Source: Tildeniella torsiva UHER 1998/13D (lineage in GTDB: Bacteria > Cyanobacteriota > Cyanobacteriia > Phormidesmidales > Phormidesmidaceae). From it: a DNA stretch of 64,000 nucleotides. Numbering within the stretch: position 1 is the first letter of the stretch; each line of letters opens with the position of its first letter. The notes under the pieces are model-generated. The model was not told the DNA's origin. It worked only from the letters and a program-made list of their open reading frames with translations, and searched no databases. Of this stretch, positions 26,692 through 54,245 are shown one piece after another. The translations under genes were made by a program, and so were the position numbers. The stretch is from positions 1-64,000 of the forward strand of contig JAHHIH010000003.1 of assembly GCA_019358835.1 (NCBI GenBank), in the 5' to 3' direction.

Positions 26692-26763
26692 GGGTCGCTA
26701 GCTCAGCGGTAGAGCACTCGGCTTTTAACCGATTGGTCCTGGGTTCGAATCCCAGGCGACCCA
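26692..26763 (+). tRNA. tRNA-Lys (anticodon UUU)
   Basis: The 72-nt cloverleaf has acceptor stem GGGTCGC/GCGACCC, D-arm GCTC-AGCGGTA-GAGC, anticodon loop CTTTTAA with TTT, and T-arm CTGGG-TTCGAAT-CCCAG. The discriminator base is A and the 3' CCA is not encoded. It is a single tRNA gene. Confidence 0.97.
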
Positions 26764-48288: not shown

Positions 48289-48891
48289 ATGAGCGTTTCC
48301 CCTCGCCTCGATTCTCTGGTTTCTTTAGCGCCCGCCCCCGGCATGGCCTGCAAGCTGCTGTTTGACCGCGACCTGTACACCCCTTGCCACGTTCGGGTGC
48401 CCGATACCGACCATCGGCTGTCGGCGATCTACGTTGACAACCAGTTCTACAGCTTTCTCAAGATTGTGCCTGAGGCCCGCAAGGCGCTGGATGTAGTGAC
48501 CCGCCTGGGCAAACGAGACCATACGGCGGCAATCACTCTAACCCGGCGGGGCTATGCGGTGTGGGCCCACGAGCCCAGCGCTAGCTATGCGCCCCCCGCC
48601 AGAAAGCCAGGCTATGCCATTCGTCCGGTGTTTGGTCCCCAACCCTGCCTGATGGTGAGTGACAAAACCGCCTACCAAACCTGTAGATTGCAGGTGCCTG
48701 ACGTGACTAAGCCACTGATGGCGCTCACCTATAACGATCGCTACTACAGCTTTTTTAAGCAAGATATCGATGCCGCGAAGGTGTTGGATATTGCCGCTAA
48801 GCTAGCCCGACGGGGCGATGAAACCCTGCTGGTGATTGAGCCACCCACGTTTACGCTGGCGCTGCTAGAACCCAATGCCCGACTGGTTTAG
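48289..48891 (+). CDS. Hypothetical protein with an internal duplication
   Basis: 200 residues, no membrane segment, not assigned to a family. Two halves align: CKLLFDRDLYTPCHVRVPD (about 22-40) with CLMVSDKTAYQTCRLQVPD (about 121-139), then YVDNQFYSFLK with YNDRYYSFFK, KALDVVTRLGKR with KVLDIAAKLARR, and VWAHEPSA with LALLEPNA. Each half is an alpha/beta unit of about 78 residues, separated by a short linker with many Pro. Both halves keep one Cys at the end of the third strand. The duplicated module is likely a small-molecule or nucleic-acid binding fold, but there is no basis to choose. Confidence 0.75.
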   Translation: MSVSPRLDSLVSLAPAPGMACKLLFDRDLYTPCHVRVPDTDHRLSAIYVDNQFYSFLKIVPEARKALDVVTRLGKRDHTAAITLTRRGYAVWAHEPSASYAPPARKPGYAIRPVFGPQPCLMVSDKTAYQTCRLQVPDVTKPLMALTYNDRYYSFFKQDIDAAKVLDIAAKLARRGDETLLVIEPPTFTLALLEPNARLV

Positions 48892-48922
48892 TCGTTAGGC
48901 GGTGGACTGTATACAAAAAACT

Positions 48923-48986
48923 GTGTCGGGGGTGGCGTGATCCTCTAAGGTGATAACTTGAAACCTTTTCACGCTATCTCCGACAC
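48923..48986 (+). ncRNA. Candidate structured leader RNA before the 49000 gene
   Basis: Three nested stems can form: GTGTCGG/CCGACAC (48923-48929 with 48980-48986, 7 bp), GCGTGA/TCACGC (48935-48940 with 48969-48974, 6 bp) and AAGGT/ACCTT (48947-48951 with 48963-48967, 5 bp), with a symmetric 5x5 internal loop and an asymmetric 6x1 loop. The structure ends two bases before the Shine-Dalgarno GGAG (48988-48991). It matches no riboswitch consensus that I can recall. Confidence 0.4.
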
Positions 48987-48999
48987 TGGAGCGCTCGCC

Positions 49000-49398
49000 A
49001 TGACTGACAATACCGAAAACATTACGGTCTTTATCTGTGGTTCGGCCCTGCGCGGCCAGCCCGACAACCAAAACCTTCAGAACGCAGACTTTCTCGGAGC
49101 GGCAGCCACAGCGCCAATCTATCGTTTGCATGCGGTAAAAGATGGCTGGCACCCAGGGATTTACGAAGTCGAGGCGGATGGAATTTCGATTCCCGGTGAG
49201 CTGTACGCGATGACGCCGGAGCAGTACAACTACCTAAAAGACAATGAGCCGCCGCACATGTATCCCCACGAGGTGAAGCTGACGGATGGGGGCACGGCGA
49301 TCGCCTTTCTCTACCCCAAAGCACTGATCGATGAGCACGGCTGGGCCGACATTTCGGCCCACGGCGGTTGGGCAGCCTACAAGGCAGCGACCGTGTAA
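49000..49398 (+). CDS. Gamma-glutamylcyclotransferase/allophanate hydrolase C-domain-like protein
   Basis: 132 residues from ATG 49000, which has GGAG eight bases upstream. The fold pattern is that of the small AtzF C-terminal / gamma-glutamylcyclotransferase-like domain: ITVFICGSALRGQPDNQNLQNADFLGAA, then YRLHAVKDGWHPGIYEV and ISIPGELYAMTPEQYNYLKDNEPPHMY. Stand-alone proteins of this type are often called allophanate hydrolase-related, but the amidase half is absent, so hydrolysis of allophanate is not implied. A strongly folded leader precedes it. The 108-bp gap to the previous gene leaves room for its own promoter. Confidence 0.65.
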   Translation: MTDNTENITVFICGSALRGQPDNQNLQNADFLGAAATAPIYRLHAVKDGWHPGIYEVEADGISIPGELYAMTPEQYNYLKDNEPPHMYPHEVKLTDGGTAIAFLYPKALIDEHGWADISAHGGWAAYKAATV

Positions 49399-49813
49399 AT
49401 GGCTGAGGCAAATACCTAAATTTTGTTGGCCAAAACCATGGCTGCAATGCCCAACCAGAGCCAGGCCTCTAGTTGGGTGTTTCGTTTCAACCGCTGCTTA
49501 GCTCAGGTTTAGAGGCTAACAGCAGGTGTAAATCTACCTAAAATCTTGGCCTAAAACTCTGTGGACTATTGTTAATTTGCCCCCAGGGAAACATTGTTTT
49601 AAGTTGTCTCGGGAATTATACGTAAAGTCTGGCCAGATGCTAAAGCACAGTCGCCAGGGTCATCTAGCCCAGTGTCACATAGCAAAATAAACCCAGTCCA
49701 GATCCAGCTCGGGCTCGGGCTCTGGGTTTGGCTCAGACCAATCGCCTCGTTGCACCAGTGCTATGCCAAACCTCTAACCCCTTGAATTGTTGGCGATCGC
49801 CAGGGAGAACCTG
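49399..49813. other. Intergenic region upstream of the PAS kinase gene
   Basis: 415 bp without a supported ORF. A stem AAACCCAG (49689-49696) / CTGGGTTT (49722-49729) encloses the short tandem GGGCTC units at 49709-49723; it lacks a T-tract. The A/T-rich part around 49560-49630 is a plausible promoter location. Confidence 0.4.
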
Positions 49814-52108
49814 ATGGCCCAGGCCGAGAGTTTAGTCAGTCTTGCCCAACAGCGGCAGGTGCAGCAGCAGCTTGCCGAAATTGAAACCATCTACCAGTCG
49901 GCCCCCATTGGCCTGGGAGTGCTCGATCGCGATCTACGCTTTGTGCGAGTCAACCAGCGGCTGGCGGAGATGAATGGGCTATCGGTCGAAGCCCACCTGG
50001 GCCGTACCATTCGAGATCTGCTGCCCAATTTGGCCGACCAGGCCGAGGCCATGCTGCGCCCCATTCTCGCCACGGGCGAACCGCTGCTCAAGGTAGAGAT
50101 TAGCGGCGAGACCCCGGCCCAGCCCGGCGTACAGCGGGCCTGGGTCGAGAGTTTTTGGCCGCTCAAAGATGGCGATCGCATGATCGGCATCAGCATTGTG
50201 TGCGAAGAGGTGACCGATCGCAAACGCATTGAGGCCGAGCGTCAGCAGGCGCTAGACGACTTGCAGCAAGCCAAGGACGACCTGGAGCAGCGGGTGGCTG
50301 AACGCACCGCCGAACTCTCTGAGATCAACTCTGACCTGCGCCAGCGGAAATCCATTCTGCGCAGTTTGTTCGACAGTGCTGCCATGCCCATGGGCATGGT
50401 TGAACTCCACGAAGGCGATATTCTACACATTTCTAACAACGGGGCCACCGCTGAGTTTATGGGCACTACCCCCCAGGCCATGCAAAATCGGTTCGCCAGC
50501 GATCTGGGGGTGCCTGCCGCCACCATAGATCGCTGGATCGCCTACTATCGCGAAGCTGAGCGCACCCAGGCCCCGGTGCGGTTTGAATATTGCCAGGAGA
50601 ATTATCCTGCTCAGGGGCGATGGCTGTCGGGGAGTGTGTGTTCCGTCGATATCAGCCCCAGCGGATATCCTCGGTTTTCGTACATTCTGGAAGACATTAC
50701 GGAGCGCAAACAGGCCGAAGAGACCCTGGCCCGTCGCGAAGAGCAGCTGCGGCTCACCCTCGAATTTACCCACATTGGCACCTGGGACTGGGATGTCCGC
50801 CAGGACGCCGTGGTCTGGAATGACAACCACTTTAAGCTGCTGGGCCTCGATCCTGCCCACACCAAGGACCCTTACCAGAGCTGGCGCCACGCCATTCACC
50901 CCGACGATTTAGAGCGGGTTGAACATGCCCTGCAAGATGCCCTGCACCAGCACACCGATTACGAAACCGAATACCGCGTGTTTTACCCCGATGGCACCCT
51001 GCGGTGGCTGGTGGGCCGGGGGCGAGGCCTGTATGACGCCGATCAACGGCCTATTCGCATGCTAGGGGTAATTCTTGACATCAGCGATCGCAAGCGGGCC
51101 GAGCAAATTCAAGAATTTCAGGCGGTGATTACCCGCAACATGGCCGAGGGCATTTGCGTGGTCAGGGCCGACAACGCCATGATTGCCTACGCCAACCGCA
51201 AGTTTGAGCAGATGTTTGGCTACAACCCCGGTGAGCTAGACGGACGGCATGTGTCGATCATCAACTATGCCAACGATGAGGCCGGAGCCGAAGCGGTGAA
51301 TCAGGCGATTTGCCAGGCGGTTTTTGACAACCTAGAGGCCACCTACGAAGTTCACAACATTAAAAAAGACGGCACGCCGTTTTGGTGCAGTGCGACCACC
51401 TCAGTGTTTGATCATCCAGAGTATGGTTCAGTACTAGTGGCAGTGCATCAAGACATAAGCGATCGCAAAGAATCTGAAGCCAAACTTCAGGCCTCTCTGA
51501 AAGAAAAAGAACTGCTGCTCAAAGAGATCTATCACCGGGTCAAAAACAACCTGCAAGTGGTCTACAGCCTGCTCAACTTGCAGTCCCGTAAGGTGTCTGA
51601 CCCATTGGCTCTGTCGGTGCTGAGAGATAGCCAAAGCCGGGTGAGGGCCATGGCATTGGTGCATGAAAAGCTCTACAAATCAGACGATCTAACCCGCATT
51701 GATATGGCCGACTACATCCACAGTCTGGCCTATAGCCTGGTTGAAACCTATCAGTCGAGCCGCAGTCACATCTCTCTACAGTTGAAAATTGAGACCTACA
51801 GCTTAGACATTGAAACCGCCCTACCCTGCGGTTTAATGCTCACCGAACTGATGTCAAATTCCCTTAAATATGCCTTTTCTGATGGCCGATCTGGTGAGAT
51901 TACAATTACCTCGTCCCTAGGGTCTGATCGGCAGGTTTTTCTCAGGGTGGGAGACAATGGTGTTGGCCTACCCAGCAATTTTGATCTGCAACAGGTACCG
52001 TCTTTGGGCCTAAGTTTGGTGAGAAACCTGGCCAAACAAATTAAGGGAGAGGTGGCGATCGCCCCCCAGGTCGTTGGCTCTGCCTTTCAAGTCGTGTTTC
52101 CGGCGTAG
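49814..52108 (+). CDS. Multi-PAS sensor histidine kinase (HisKA_2 type)
   Basis: 764 residues from ATG 49814, which has GGGAG at 49802-49806; a TTG nine codons earlier is possible. Four PAS/PAC modules follow one another (about 15-145, 175-305, 315-440, 445-565), with a coiled-coil connector (about 140-175, LDDLQQAKDDLEQRVAERTAELSEI). The dimerisation domain is HisKA_2 with His574 in EIYHRVKNNLQVVYSLLNLQ, and the ATPase domain has LTELMSNSLKYAF, GDNGVGLP and LGLSLVRNL. No membrane segment, so a cytoplasmic sensor of light, redox state or ligand. The receiver/GGDEF/EAL gene starts eight bases after its stop and is the obvious phosphotransfer partner. Confidence 0.93.
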   Translation: MAQAESLVSLAQQRQVQQQLAEIETIYQSAPIGLGVLDRDLRFVRVNQRLAEMNGLSVEAHLGRTIRDLLPNLADQAEAMLRPILATGEPLLKVEISGETPAQPGVQRAWVESFWPLKDGDRMIGISIVCEEVTDRKRIEAERQQALDDLQQAKDDLEQRVAERTAELSEINSDLRQRKSILRSLFDSAAMPMGMVELHEGDILHISNNGATAEFMGTTPQAMQNRFASDLGVPAATIDRWIAYYREAERTQAPVRFEYCQENYPAQGRWLSGSVCSVDISPSGYPRFSYILEDITERKQAEETLARREEQLRLTLEFTHIGTWDWDVRQDAVVWNDNHFKLLGLDPAHTKDPYQSWRHAIHPDDLERVEHALQDALHQHTDYETEYRVFYPDGTLRWLVGRGRGLYDADQRPIRMLGVILDISDRKRAEQIQEFQAVITRNMAEGICVVRADNAMIAYANRKFEQMFGYNPGELDGRHVSIINYANDEAGAEAVNQAICQAVFDNLEATYEVHNIKKDGTPFWCSATTSVFDHPEYGSVLVAVHQDISDRKESEAKLQASLKEKELLLKEIYHRVKNNLQVVYSLLNLQSRKVSDPLALSVLRDSQSRVRAMALVHEKLYKSDDLTRIDMADYIHSLAYSLVETYQSSRSHISLQLKIETYSLDIETALPCGLMLTELMSNSLKYAFSDGRSGEITITSSLGSDRQVFLRVGDNGVGLPSNFDLQQVPSLGLSLVRNLAKQIKGEVAIAPQVVGSAFQVVFPA

Positions 52109-52115
52109 GAGCCCT

Positions 52116-54245
52116 ATGGAGAAAAAGACCATTTTGGTCGTTGAGGATGAAGTTGTCATCGCCATGGACTTGCAGGCGACGCTGATTGACCTGGGCCATC
52201 AGGTACCCGAGATCATCACCTCTGGGGAGGCCGCTGTGCAAAAAGCGTTAGAACTGCACCCCGATTTAGTCTTAATGGATATCCACCTCAGTGGTGCTGT
52301 AGATGGCATTGCCGCCGCCGCTGCCATCAATGAAGCTCTAGATATTCCGGTGATTTATCTCACTGCCTACGCCGACGAAGACACCCTAAAACGGGCTAGC
52401 CTGACTGCGCCTTTTGGCTATATTCTCAAACCCTTTGAAGCTAGAGAATTACGCGCCAATATCGACATTGCCTTTTATAAACACAGGCTCGAAAAAACTA
52501 TTAAAGAACACCGTCAGTGGCTGCTGGCGGTCTTAAATAGCATTAGCGAGGGCGTTGCCGCCAGCGACCCCAGCGGCCTGATCAAGTTTATGAATCCGGT
52601 GGCCGAAGCCCTAACCGGCTGGTCGCAGGCGGAGGCCATAGGGCGATCGCCCGCCGAGGTCTTTCATTTTCTAGACGAGGTGACGCGCAACCTGATTGAC
52701 AATCCCCTGCTGAAGTCACTGCACGAAGACCACACTGTGTATCTGCCCGACAACGCGCTGCTGCTCACCAAGCAGGGGGCTGAAATTCCGGTGGCCGACA
52801 GTGCGGCCCCGATCTACAGCGATCGAGGCAACTTGGAGGGGGCCGTGATGGTGGTGCGCGACAGCACCGAACAGCGCCGCCTGGAGGCCCAGCTAGAGCA
52901 CAACGCCCTGCACGATGCCCTGACCCATTTGCCCAATCGCGGTCTGTTTTTAGACCGCCTCCAGCAGGCGATCGATCGATCGCGGCGATCGTCGGAGTTT
53001 GGCTTTGCCGTCATGGTTCTCGACCTCGATCGCTTCAAGAGCATCAACGACACCCTGGGGCACCTGCTGGGCGATCAGCTGTTGGTTGAGGTTGCCCCCC
53101 GCCTTAAGGCCCACCTGCGGGCCGTCGATACCGTGGCCCGCTTTGGCGGCGATGAGTTTGCCGTGCTGCTAGAAGACATCAGCGATGTGGCCGTGGCCTG
53201 TCGTACAGCGGAGCGCATTTTAGACGAAATCAAACAGCCCTTCCTGATTGAAAACCATGAGCTGTTGGTGACGGCCAGCATCGGCATTGTGATGAACTCC
53301 ATTCCCTACGAGCAGGGGGCCGATCTGCTGCGCCATGCCGATATCGCCATGTATCGGGCCAAGAAGCGGGGCCGGGGTGACTACGAACTCTTTGATACGG
53401 CTATGCACAGCCAGGCGCGCGAGCTGATGCAACGGGAGCACGCCCTGCGCTCTGCGATCGCCCACAACCAGCTCGCCGTGCACTACCAGCCCATCATCAC
53501 CCTGGCCACCGGCGATGTCACCAGCTTTGAGGCCCTGGTGCGCTGGCAAAAGCCCGATGGTGAGCTGATCTACCCAGACCAGTTTATTCATCTAGCAGAA
53601 GAGATGGGCATCGTCACCACCATCGATCAGTGGGTGCTGCGTCAGGCCTGCCAACAGCTCCAGGTCTGGCAACAGACGGGTCTAGGGGCCTGGGTTTTAG
53701 CCGATGGCCAGCTCACCAGACAAATCGACAGCACCGAGCCCTCCCCGGGTATGGCCATCAATGTCAACCTATCGACCCATCATTTTGCCCAAAAGAACCT
53801 GGTAGACACTTTTGCCAACATTCTGCAAGAGACCGGCATGGACGGTCACCAGTTGAAGCTCGAAATTACCGAAAGCGTCTTTATTGAAAATGCCAAAGCC
53901 GCCGCTGCCATGCTCAAGCAGCTCAAGCAGCTCAACGTGCAAATTTGCCTAGATGATTTTGGCACCGGCTATTCATCGTTTAGCTATCTGCACCAGTTCC
54001 CCATAGACATGGTCAAAATCGATCGCTCCTTTGTGCAGGGCCTAGAAACCGACGCCGAGAAGCTCGAAATTGTGCGCGCGATCGTTGGCCTCTGCCACAC
54101 TCTGGGCATGGCCGTTACTGCCGAGGGCATCGAGACGCCCGAGCAGCGCGATATTTTGCACGACCTGGGCTGTGAGTATGGCCAGGGCTTTCTGTTTGCC
54201 AAAGCGATCGATGGGGCCGCAATTACCCAACATCTGCGCAGGTAG
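52116..54245 (+). CDS. Response regulator with PAS, GGDEF and EAL domains
   Basis: 709 residues from ATG 52116; its Shine-Dalgarno AGGAG overlaps the stop of the kinase gene. Order: receiver domain (about 5-120, phospho-acceptor Asp55 in LVLMDIHLSG), PAS (about 135-260), GGDEF (about 275-430, FGGDEFAVLLED intact) and EAL (about 450-700, SFEALVRW, CLDDFGTGYSSFSYLHQFPIDMVKID, ITESVF). The I-site RxxD four residues before GGDEF is not present (DTVARFGGDEF has D-T-V-A), so product inhibition may be lacking. Both catalytic motifs look active, so c-di-GMP could be made or degraded depending on the receiver state. Confidence 0.94.
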   Translation: MEKKTILVVEDEVVIAMDLQATLIDLGHQVPEIITSGEAAVQKALELHPDLVLMDIHLSGAVDGIAAAAAINEALDIPVIYLTAYADEDTLKRASLTAPFGYILKPFEARELRANIDIAFYKHRLEKTIKEHRQWLLAVLNSISEGVAASDPSGLIKFMNPVAEALTGWSQAEAIGRSPAEVFHFLDEVTRNLIDNPLLKSLHEDHTVYLPDNALLLTKQGAEIPVADSAAPIYSDRGNLEGAVMVVRDSTEQRRLEAQLEHNALHDALTHLPNRGLFLDRLQQAIDRSRRSSEFGFAVMVLDLDRFKSINDTLGHLLGDQLLVEVAPRLKAHLRAVDTVARFGGDEFAVLLEDISDVAVACRTAERILDEIKQPFLIENHELLVTASIGIVMNSIPYEQGADLLRHADIAMYRAKKRGRGDYELFDTAMHSQARELMQREHALRSAIAHNQLAVHYQPIITLATGDVTSFEALVRWQKPDGELIYPDQFIHLAEEMGIVTTIDQWVLRQACQQLQVWQQTGLGAWVLADGQLTRQIDSTEPSPGMAINVNLSTHHFAQKNLVDTFANILQETGMDGHQLKLEITESVFIENAKAAAAMLKQLKQLNVQICLDDFGTGYSSFSYLHQFPIDMVKIDRSFVQGLETDAEKLEIVRAIVGLCHTLGMAVTAEGIETPEQRDILHDLGCEYGQGFLFAKAIDGAAITQHLRR

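Follow-up and report, generated by a model that had tools for sequence, protein, structure and literature searches.

In the cyanobacterium Tildeniella torsiva UHER 1998/13D, a strong RNA hairpin is found immediately upstream of a gene encoding a stand-alone allophanate-hydrolase C-terminal-domain (AH_C) protein, on the forward strand of contig JAHHIH010000003.1 (assembly GCA_019358835.1), of which positions 1 to 64,000 were analyzed here (the window). In all likelihood this leader hairpin is a genuine cis-acting RNA restricted to one genus, and probably a control element of the AH_C gene that has not been described before. The reading that we favor, with somewhat more than even confidence, is that the hairpin is located in the 5' or intercistronic leader of the gene and is gated by a trans-acting factor. 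Here, the leader upstream of the AH_C gene would be transcribed, the stem, which borders the 30S landing site, would limit translation initiation and/or protect the mRNA, and a frozen loop block, AUCCUYUAAGGU, would be the recognition site for a factor that alters the effect of the stem. Candidates for this factor are RNA-binding proteins and small RNAs and, with lower likelihood, small molecules.

The hairpin (48923-48986, + strand) is composed of 64 nt, i.e., an 18-pair stem and a 28-nt apical region (Table 1). The stem is an uninterrupted helix (48923-48940/48969-48986) with three G-U pairs among its 18 pairs, and 14 nt separate its 3' end from the ATG at 49000. The minimum free energy (MFE) of the segment 48923-49010 is -36.3 kcal/mol, compared to -22.6 +/- 3.47 kcal/mol for dinucleotide-preserving shuffles (z -3.95), none of 200 shuffles being as stable, while that of the 64-nt hairpin alone is -33.6 kcal/mol (z -7.0, 0 of 300 shuffles as stable). 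The strongly folded 64-nt leader element described in an earlier, sequence-only reading of this DNA is thus real, and the placement of GGAG (48988-48991) eight bases before the ATG agrees with the positions. That reading also described three perfect nested stems of 7, 6 and 5 bp. The outer 7-bp stem, a "symmetric internal loop" and the 6-bp stem instead form the one 18-pair helix when G-U pairs are allowed, while the third, AAGGU/ACCUU, is present as a weak apical stem. A single base (T48987), rather than two, lies between the hairpin and GGAG.

Table 1. Features of the AH_C leader and the adjoining genes (positions in the window)
Feature	Position	Strand	Remark
200-aa ORF, upstream, same strand as the AH_C gene	48289..48891	+	ends 31 nt 5' of the hairpin
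TGTATACA palindrome immediately 5' of the hairpin, a candidate operator or -10 element	48908..48915	+	
18-pair stem, 5' strand	48923..48940	+	every pair formed in the own-hairpin MFE structure
Frozen 12-nt block AUCCUYUAAGGU, 5' side of the apical loop	48940..48951	+	1 of 12 columns varies (C/U), 16 species
Weak apical stem AAGGU/ACCUU (48947-48951/48963-48967) and loop	48947..48967	+	own fold
18-pair stem, 3' strand	48969..48986	+	ends 14 nt 5' of the start codon
Linker to the start codon	48987..48999	+	UGGA invariant in 16 species
Stand-alone AH_C protein, 132 aa	49000..49398	+	PF21986

A covariance model (R1) built from 16 aligned orthologous leaders matches 16 of the 26 genomes of the genus (Nodosilinea and close kin, as inferred from named relatives) with E values of 1.1e-22 to 1.8e-17, at one site each and always just 5' of the AH_C gene; the element also occurs in L054, an additional named relative, and N. 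nodulosa PCC 7104 (L060) is among its carriers. Searches with R1 gave no match in 13 other genera among 63 genomes of the order (E 0.1) or in 158 other genera among 388 genomes of the class (E 0.01), where the same 16 were found, in both cases with filters that can lose weak matches. When the threshold is relaxed to E <= 1, the 26 genus genomes yield five extra weak sites elsewhere (E 0.15-0.78), three of these in genomes without a strong match; each was viewed and the loop block is absent from all five. The AH_C gene is present in 24 of the 26 genomes, and the hairpin in 16 of these 24. Two genomes, G001 (L018/L067) and G014 (L020/L062), harbor the exact 12-mer AUCCUYUAAGGU in the same spacer with another stem. 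In L067 the 12-mer is closed by GGUUCCCU/AGGGAGCC, and in both L067 and L062 a GGGAG before the first AUG is found within the 3' strand of the stem, the whole L062 fold being without a shuffle control. The L067 fold is modestly better than shuffles (10 of 200 as stable); for an L062 segment that starts 3' of the 12-mer, and hence lacks the stem, 144 of 200 shuffles are as stable. Six genomes (G002, G006, G015, G019, G021 and G024) have the gene without a recognizable copy of the element.

All 18 consensus-stem pairs are found in the MFE structure of the hairpin studied here and 9 to 18 of the 18 in those of the other 15 leaders (strict alignment columns), and the z scores of the 16 folds range from -1.5 to -7.0 (mean -3.8). 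The check for compensatory substitutions proposed in the sequence-only reading gave a divided outcome, i.e., few two-sided changes and a folding energy that is kept beyond neutral simulation. Two-sided changes are seen among the 16 leaders at two pairs (three cells) only; columns 20/54 contain U-A, U-G and C-G, and columns 21/53 contain G-C, G-U and A-U, while the stem otherwise changes mostly one-sidedly via G-U. A partner-shuffle control was not exceeded (157 of 500 for cells paired, 44 of 500 for the covariation score). A tree-based neutral simulation scored by pair count was not significant: the observed count was equalled or surpassed in 224 and 218 of 1000 null runs, and in 39 and 32 of 1000 once two pairs, unformed in many species, had been removed post hoc. 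In an energy-scored neutral simulation, run after the pair-count outcome was seen, the mean MFE on the + strand was -26.06 kcal/mol, compared to -22.07 +/- 1.55 kcal/mol for the null (2 of 500 as low), while the reverse complement gave 119 of 500 and the plus-minus difference 6 of 500; the corresponding counts in a first energy-scored run were 1 of 300 and, when stem rates were pooled, 0 of 300. The simulations are limited by rates taken from parsimony, by a tree drawn from 16 short gene sequences and by a reconstructed ancestor that is paired.

The number of stem cells that are paired is 261 of 284 on the + strand, 203 of 284 on the - strand and 192 of 284 with strict Watson-Crick pairing, and a DNA palindrome or an antisense RNA therefore fits worse. 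The stem does not evolve clearly more slowly than fourfold sites (12 of 36 columns invariant vs 6 of 37, p 0.11). These data provide moderate evidence for selection on a + strand RNA hairpin, and they illustrate that, for a G-U-rich hairpin with too few two-sided changes for covariation analysis, a strand-specific, tree-based folding simulation can still detect a signal. The weak covariation and the limitation to one genus are also what a functionless chance hairpin in a recently diverged spacer would display, but the simulated folding excess, the frozen block and a consensus stem that recurs in each of the 16 folds make such an origin very improbable.

The most conserved part of the apical region is UCCUYUAAGGU, of which 10 of 11 columns are invariant, compared to 3 of 18 in the remaining loop (Fisher p 3e-4) and to 6 of 37 fourfold sites of the AH_C gene (p 1e-5). 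Conservation of the weak apical stem AAGGU/ACCUU is not well supported, as all five pairs are found in the MFE structures of 8 of the 16 leaders and two-sided changes number zero. The ACCUU partner drifts, three of the five pairs departing only by broken cells; the freezing therefore concerns the sequence of the block and not its pairing with ACCUU. Judged by this pattern, the block looks like a recognition site.

A conserved structured core attached to a gene, as riboswitches have, is found here, with covariation itself weak. If the hairpin were a metabolite riboswitch, its 28-nt apical region would bind a nitrogen metabolite, of the ureide type or another, as a small aptamer, with the stem as expression platform; the frozen core, the single gene, whose wider relatives often adjoin M20-family amidohydrolase and ABC-transporter genes (see below), and the GGGAG within the stem of L067 and L062 are in line with such a function. 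Validated riboswitch classes are usually wider, whereas this element was found in a single genus and 5' of a single gene. Furthermore, the remaining loop evolves at a neutral-like rate (3 of 18 columns invariant), an alternative conformation that sequesters the Shine-Dalgarno (SD) sequence was not seen and there is no Rfam match, so that we regard a metabolite riboswitch as distinctly unlikely.

The frozen 12-mer could also act as DNA, i.e., ATCCTYTAAGGT (partial dyad CCT-YTA-AGG) would be an operator or promoter element in the leader to which a transcription factor binds, with the hairpin being incidental. Two hairpin-less genus members carry an exact TAAGGTGATA 5' of the AH_C gene at other distances, -152 (L023/L066) and -126 (L108), and one genome has an extra copy of the 12-mer with a matching flank, intergenic near a psaA-like gene. 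An operator leaves the + strand-specific folding excess unexplained, and a motif regulon was not seen, which renders it improbable. The folds around TAAGGTGATA in L066 and L108 are no better than shuffles, and the motif in these members may be a remnant or a separate element.

Across the 26 genus genomes the 12-mer has 51 matches, 18 at the AH_C leader and 33 elsewhere, compared to 10 for a reversed-pattern control; this excess may arise because the reverse complement reads as the sense codons Thr-Leu-Glu-Asp. A second copy was not found on either strand of the T. torsiva genome, and a regulon of the 12-mer was rejected, none being seen among the genus sites viewed. Of the 33 other sites 18 were viewed, and only one, the extra copy mentioned above (L145:1495-1530, genome G022), continues like the loop. 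This second frozen-loop copy, ATCCTCTAAGGTGA-N3-CTTGAGAA with the flanks GCUUUC/GAAAGC, is intergenic, the psaA-like ORF being on the opposite strand, and the 13 bases that follow agree with L011 at 11 positions, by eye. Its fold over 81 nt does not surpass shuffles in stability (z 0.15, 110 of 200), and a 46-nt form gives z -1.34 (18 of 200). A model trained with this site (R2) scores it at E 9.9e-4, which is therefore no independent proof, and the copy is a lead. Those of the weak R2 matches that were viewed (L186, L179, L182 and L183) have no convincing closing stem.

The loop also contains AAGG followed by YUG, which raises the question of an upstream ORF that would run into a AUGACUGA overlap and be translationally coupled to the AH_C gene. 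The YTG is found in 16 of 16 leaders, about 7 nt after AAGG, and in 11 of 16 the frame reaches a TGA inside ATGACTGA, but in four of 16 (L002, L010, L013 and L017) the frame differs and in L015 it stops early, so that this explanation is hardly credible. A conserved leader peptide in the YTG frame was rejected for the same shifts and early stop, as was one in the frame that ends with CTC-TAA, where a start codon common to the 16 leaders is absent.

The 14 nt that separate the stem from the AUG are within the usual footprint of the 30S subunit. In thermometers of the ROSE or fourU type the SD sequence is paired inside the stem. Here, in each of the 16 aligned leaders, the SD-like sequence follows the consensus stem on its 3' side. 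It is GGAG only in this genome and GGAA, which is a weak SD, in the other 15. The thermometer-like function considered in the sequence-only reading is therefore unsupported; by thermometer standards the stem is also very stable. GGAG in the leader studied here is unpaired with a probability of 0.63 and the start codon with one of 0.49; in a longer fold with co-transcribed upstream sequence these values are 0.44 and 0.23, respectively. Both stem arrangements, i.e., that of the 16 leaders and that of L067 and L062, fit a control of initiation or of mRNA life. In a bolder version of the proposal, which we consider fairly unlikely, the element would be a Nodosilinea-specific new class, either a small riboswitch or a protein- or sRNA-gated RNA, in which AUCCUYUAAGGU would respond to the status of nitrogen catabolism (ureide- or urea-type) and gate AH_C translation. 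It would come in two stem architectures, with the SD-like sequence next to the stem (16 species) or GGGAG within it (two).

An 18-pair stem may also serve mRNA processing or stability with no signal input, i.e., as a 5'-terminal or intercistronic structure that either shields the mRNA or is a substrate of RNase III or E. The palindrome TGTATACA, located at a near-fixed distance upstream (11 of 16), could make the transcript begin at the stem base, and the ORF on the same strand ends close upstream of the hairpin (Table 1). A processing hairpin leaves unexplained why one loop stretch is frozen beside a drifting remainder, and we consider it unlikely. The GTATAC at the TGTATACA position, just 5' of the hairpin in these 11 loci, is a palindrome that we take to be a possible GntR-type operator. 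Among 68 orthologues scanned, 20 have GTATAC within 300 nt 5' of the AH_C gene (11 of 16 hairpin-bearing, 9 of 52 others). Beyond the window, it is found 5' of the gene in L102, L106, L117, L120, L121, L122, L128, L027 and L028, with two copies in L102, L106 and L117, some as TTGTATACAA. No sigma-70-type promoter scored in 48780-49060. An intrinsic terminator was rejected, with none found in the same interval and no U run after the stem, as was a repeat or mobile element, the hairpin having a single copy in this genome.

A search of the window with 4227 Rfam 15 families gave only a tRNA (26692-26763) at gathering score. The Rfam comparison suggested in the sequence-only reading thus finds the leader hairpin absent from Rfam 15 at gathering score, and the guanidine riboswitch classes, the consensus of which that reading had already found not to match, were rejected at the same threshold. 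Up to E 10 the leader gives only six matches, all to microRNA models and far below gathering, the best with E 0.28 and 17.9 bits vs a gathering score of 92; the related loci L145, L108, L066, L067, L062 and L021 gave no Rfam match to E 0.5. Together with the conservation in 16 species and the strand-specific excess in folding stability, this result strengthens the earlier suggestion of a possible new cis-regulatory RNA. If real, it would add an RNA control element absent from Rfam 15 and attached to the AH_C enzyme family.

Some stem-loops in 5' leaders influence translation or the stability of the mRNA, for instance when bound by an RNA-binding protein or a small RNA. The hairpin resembles these in its strong stem near the start codon and its recognizable loop, but has its own sequence and its own loop block. 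Guanidine-I riboswitches (ykkC, RF00442) are likewise cis-regulatory RNAs of nitrogen-related genes and are present twice in this genome, but the leader does not match their model and precedes another gene. Both copies, at G000:C40:9494-9599 (L190) and G000:C32:86732-86873 (L191), score above cut-off; one is followed by an agmatinase-family gene (below NCBIfam cut-offs), the product of which we would guess to be akin to the guanidine hydrolase Sll1077, and the other by a type III glutamine synthetase gene. The glnA and Downstream-peptide motifs are also cyanobacterial leader RNAs, which PMC2864571 links to nitrogen, whereas the present leader has no match to their Rfam models and was found in a single genus. 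None of the titles and abstract openings examined on guanidine and Sll1077, allophanate hydrolase and its C-terminal domain, allantoate in cyanobacteria, Nodosilinea riboswitches, cyanobacterial leader hairpins and RNA-motif discovery describes the element.

The product of the downstream gene matches PF21986 (AH_C) with 100.3 bits (cut-off 27) and PF06094 (GGACT) with 48.4 bits, and is similar to allophanate hydrolase in PDB entry 4gyr (E 4.4e-07). Searches with the AH_C protein gave matches in 76 of 96 genomes, some to distant paralogues only. We know of no settled role for the stand-alone form of this enzyme family, and the input of the element, if real, would point to one. In Nodosilinea the gene comes after the 200-aa ORF, for which no Pfam or NCBIfam family was found at E 0.001, unlike in the loci scanned outside the genus. 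Six of eight part-scanned AH_C loci outside the genus adjoin a gene for an M20-family amidohydrolase (L072, L079, L117 and L121) and/or an ABC-transporter ATPase (L071, L072, L076 and L079), while in L112 and L129 the single scanned neighbor is unrelated. The M20 protein of L121 is classed as an allantoate amidohydrolase/hydantoinase-carbamoylase (NCBIfam above cut-off), and the ATPase of L076 is similar to PotA/PhnT-type ATPases, below cut-off. From these neighbors in wider relatives one may reasonably guess, by association, that the AH_C gene takes part in nitrogen recycling of the ureide type.

A second AH_C-like protein, with 38% identity, is encoded elsewhere in the T. torsiva genome (G000:C40:176158-176532). 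On the 3' side of the AH_C gene, 49787-54245 encodes a multi-PAS HisKA_2 histidine kinase overlapping a receiver-led protein that, by eye from the translation and with no family call, resembles REC-PAS-GGDEF-EAL.
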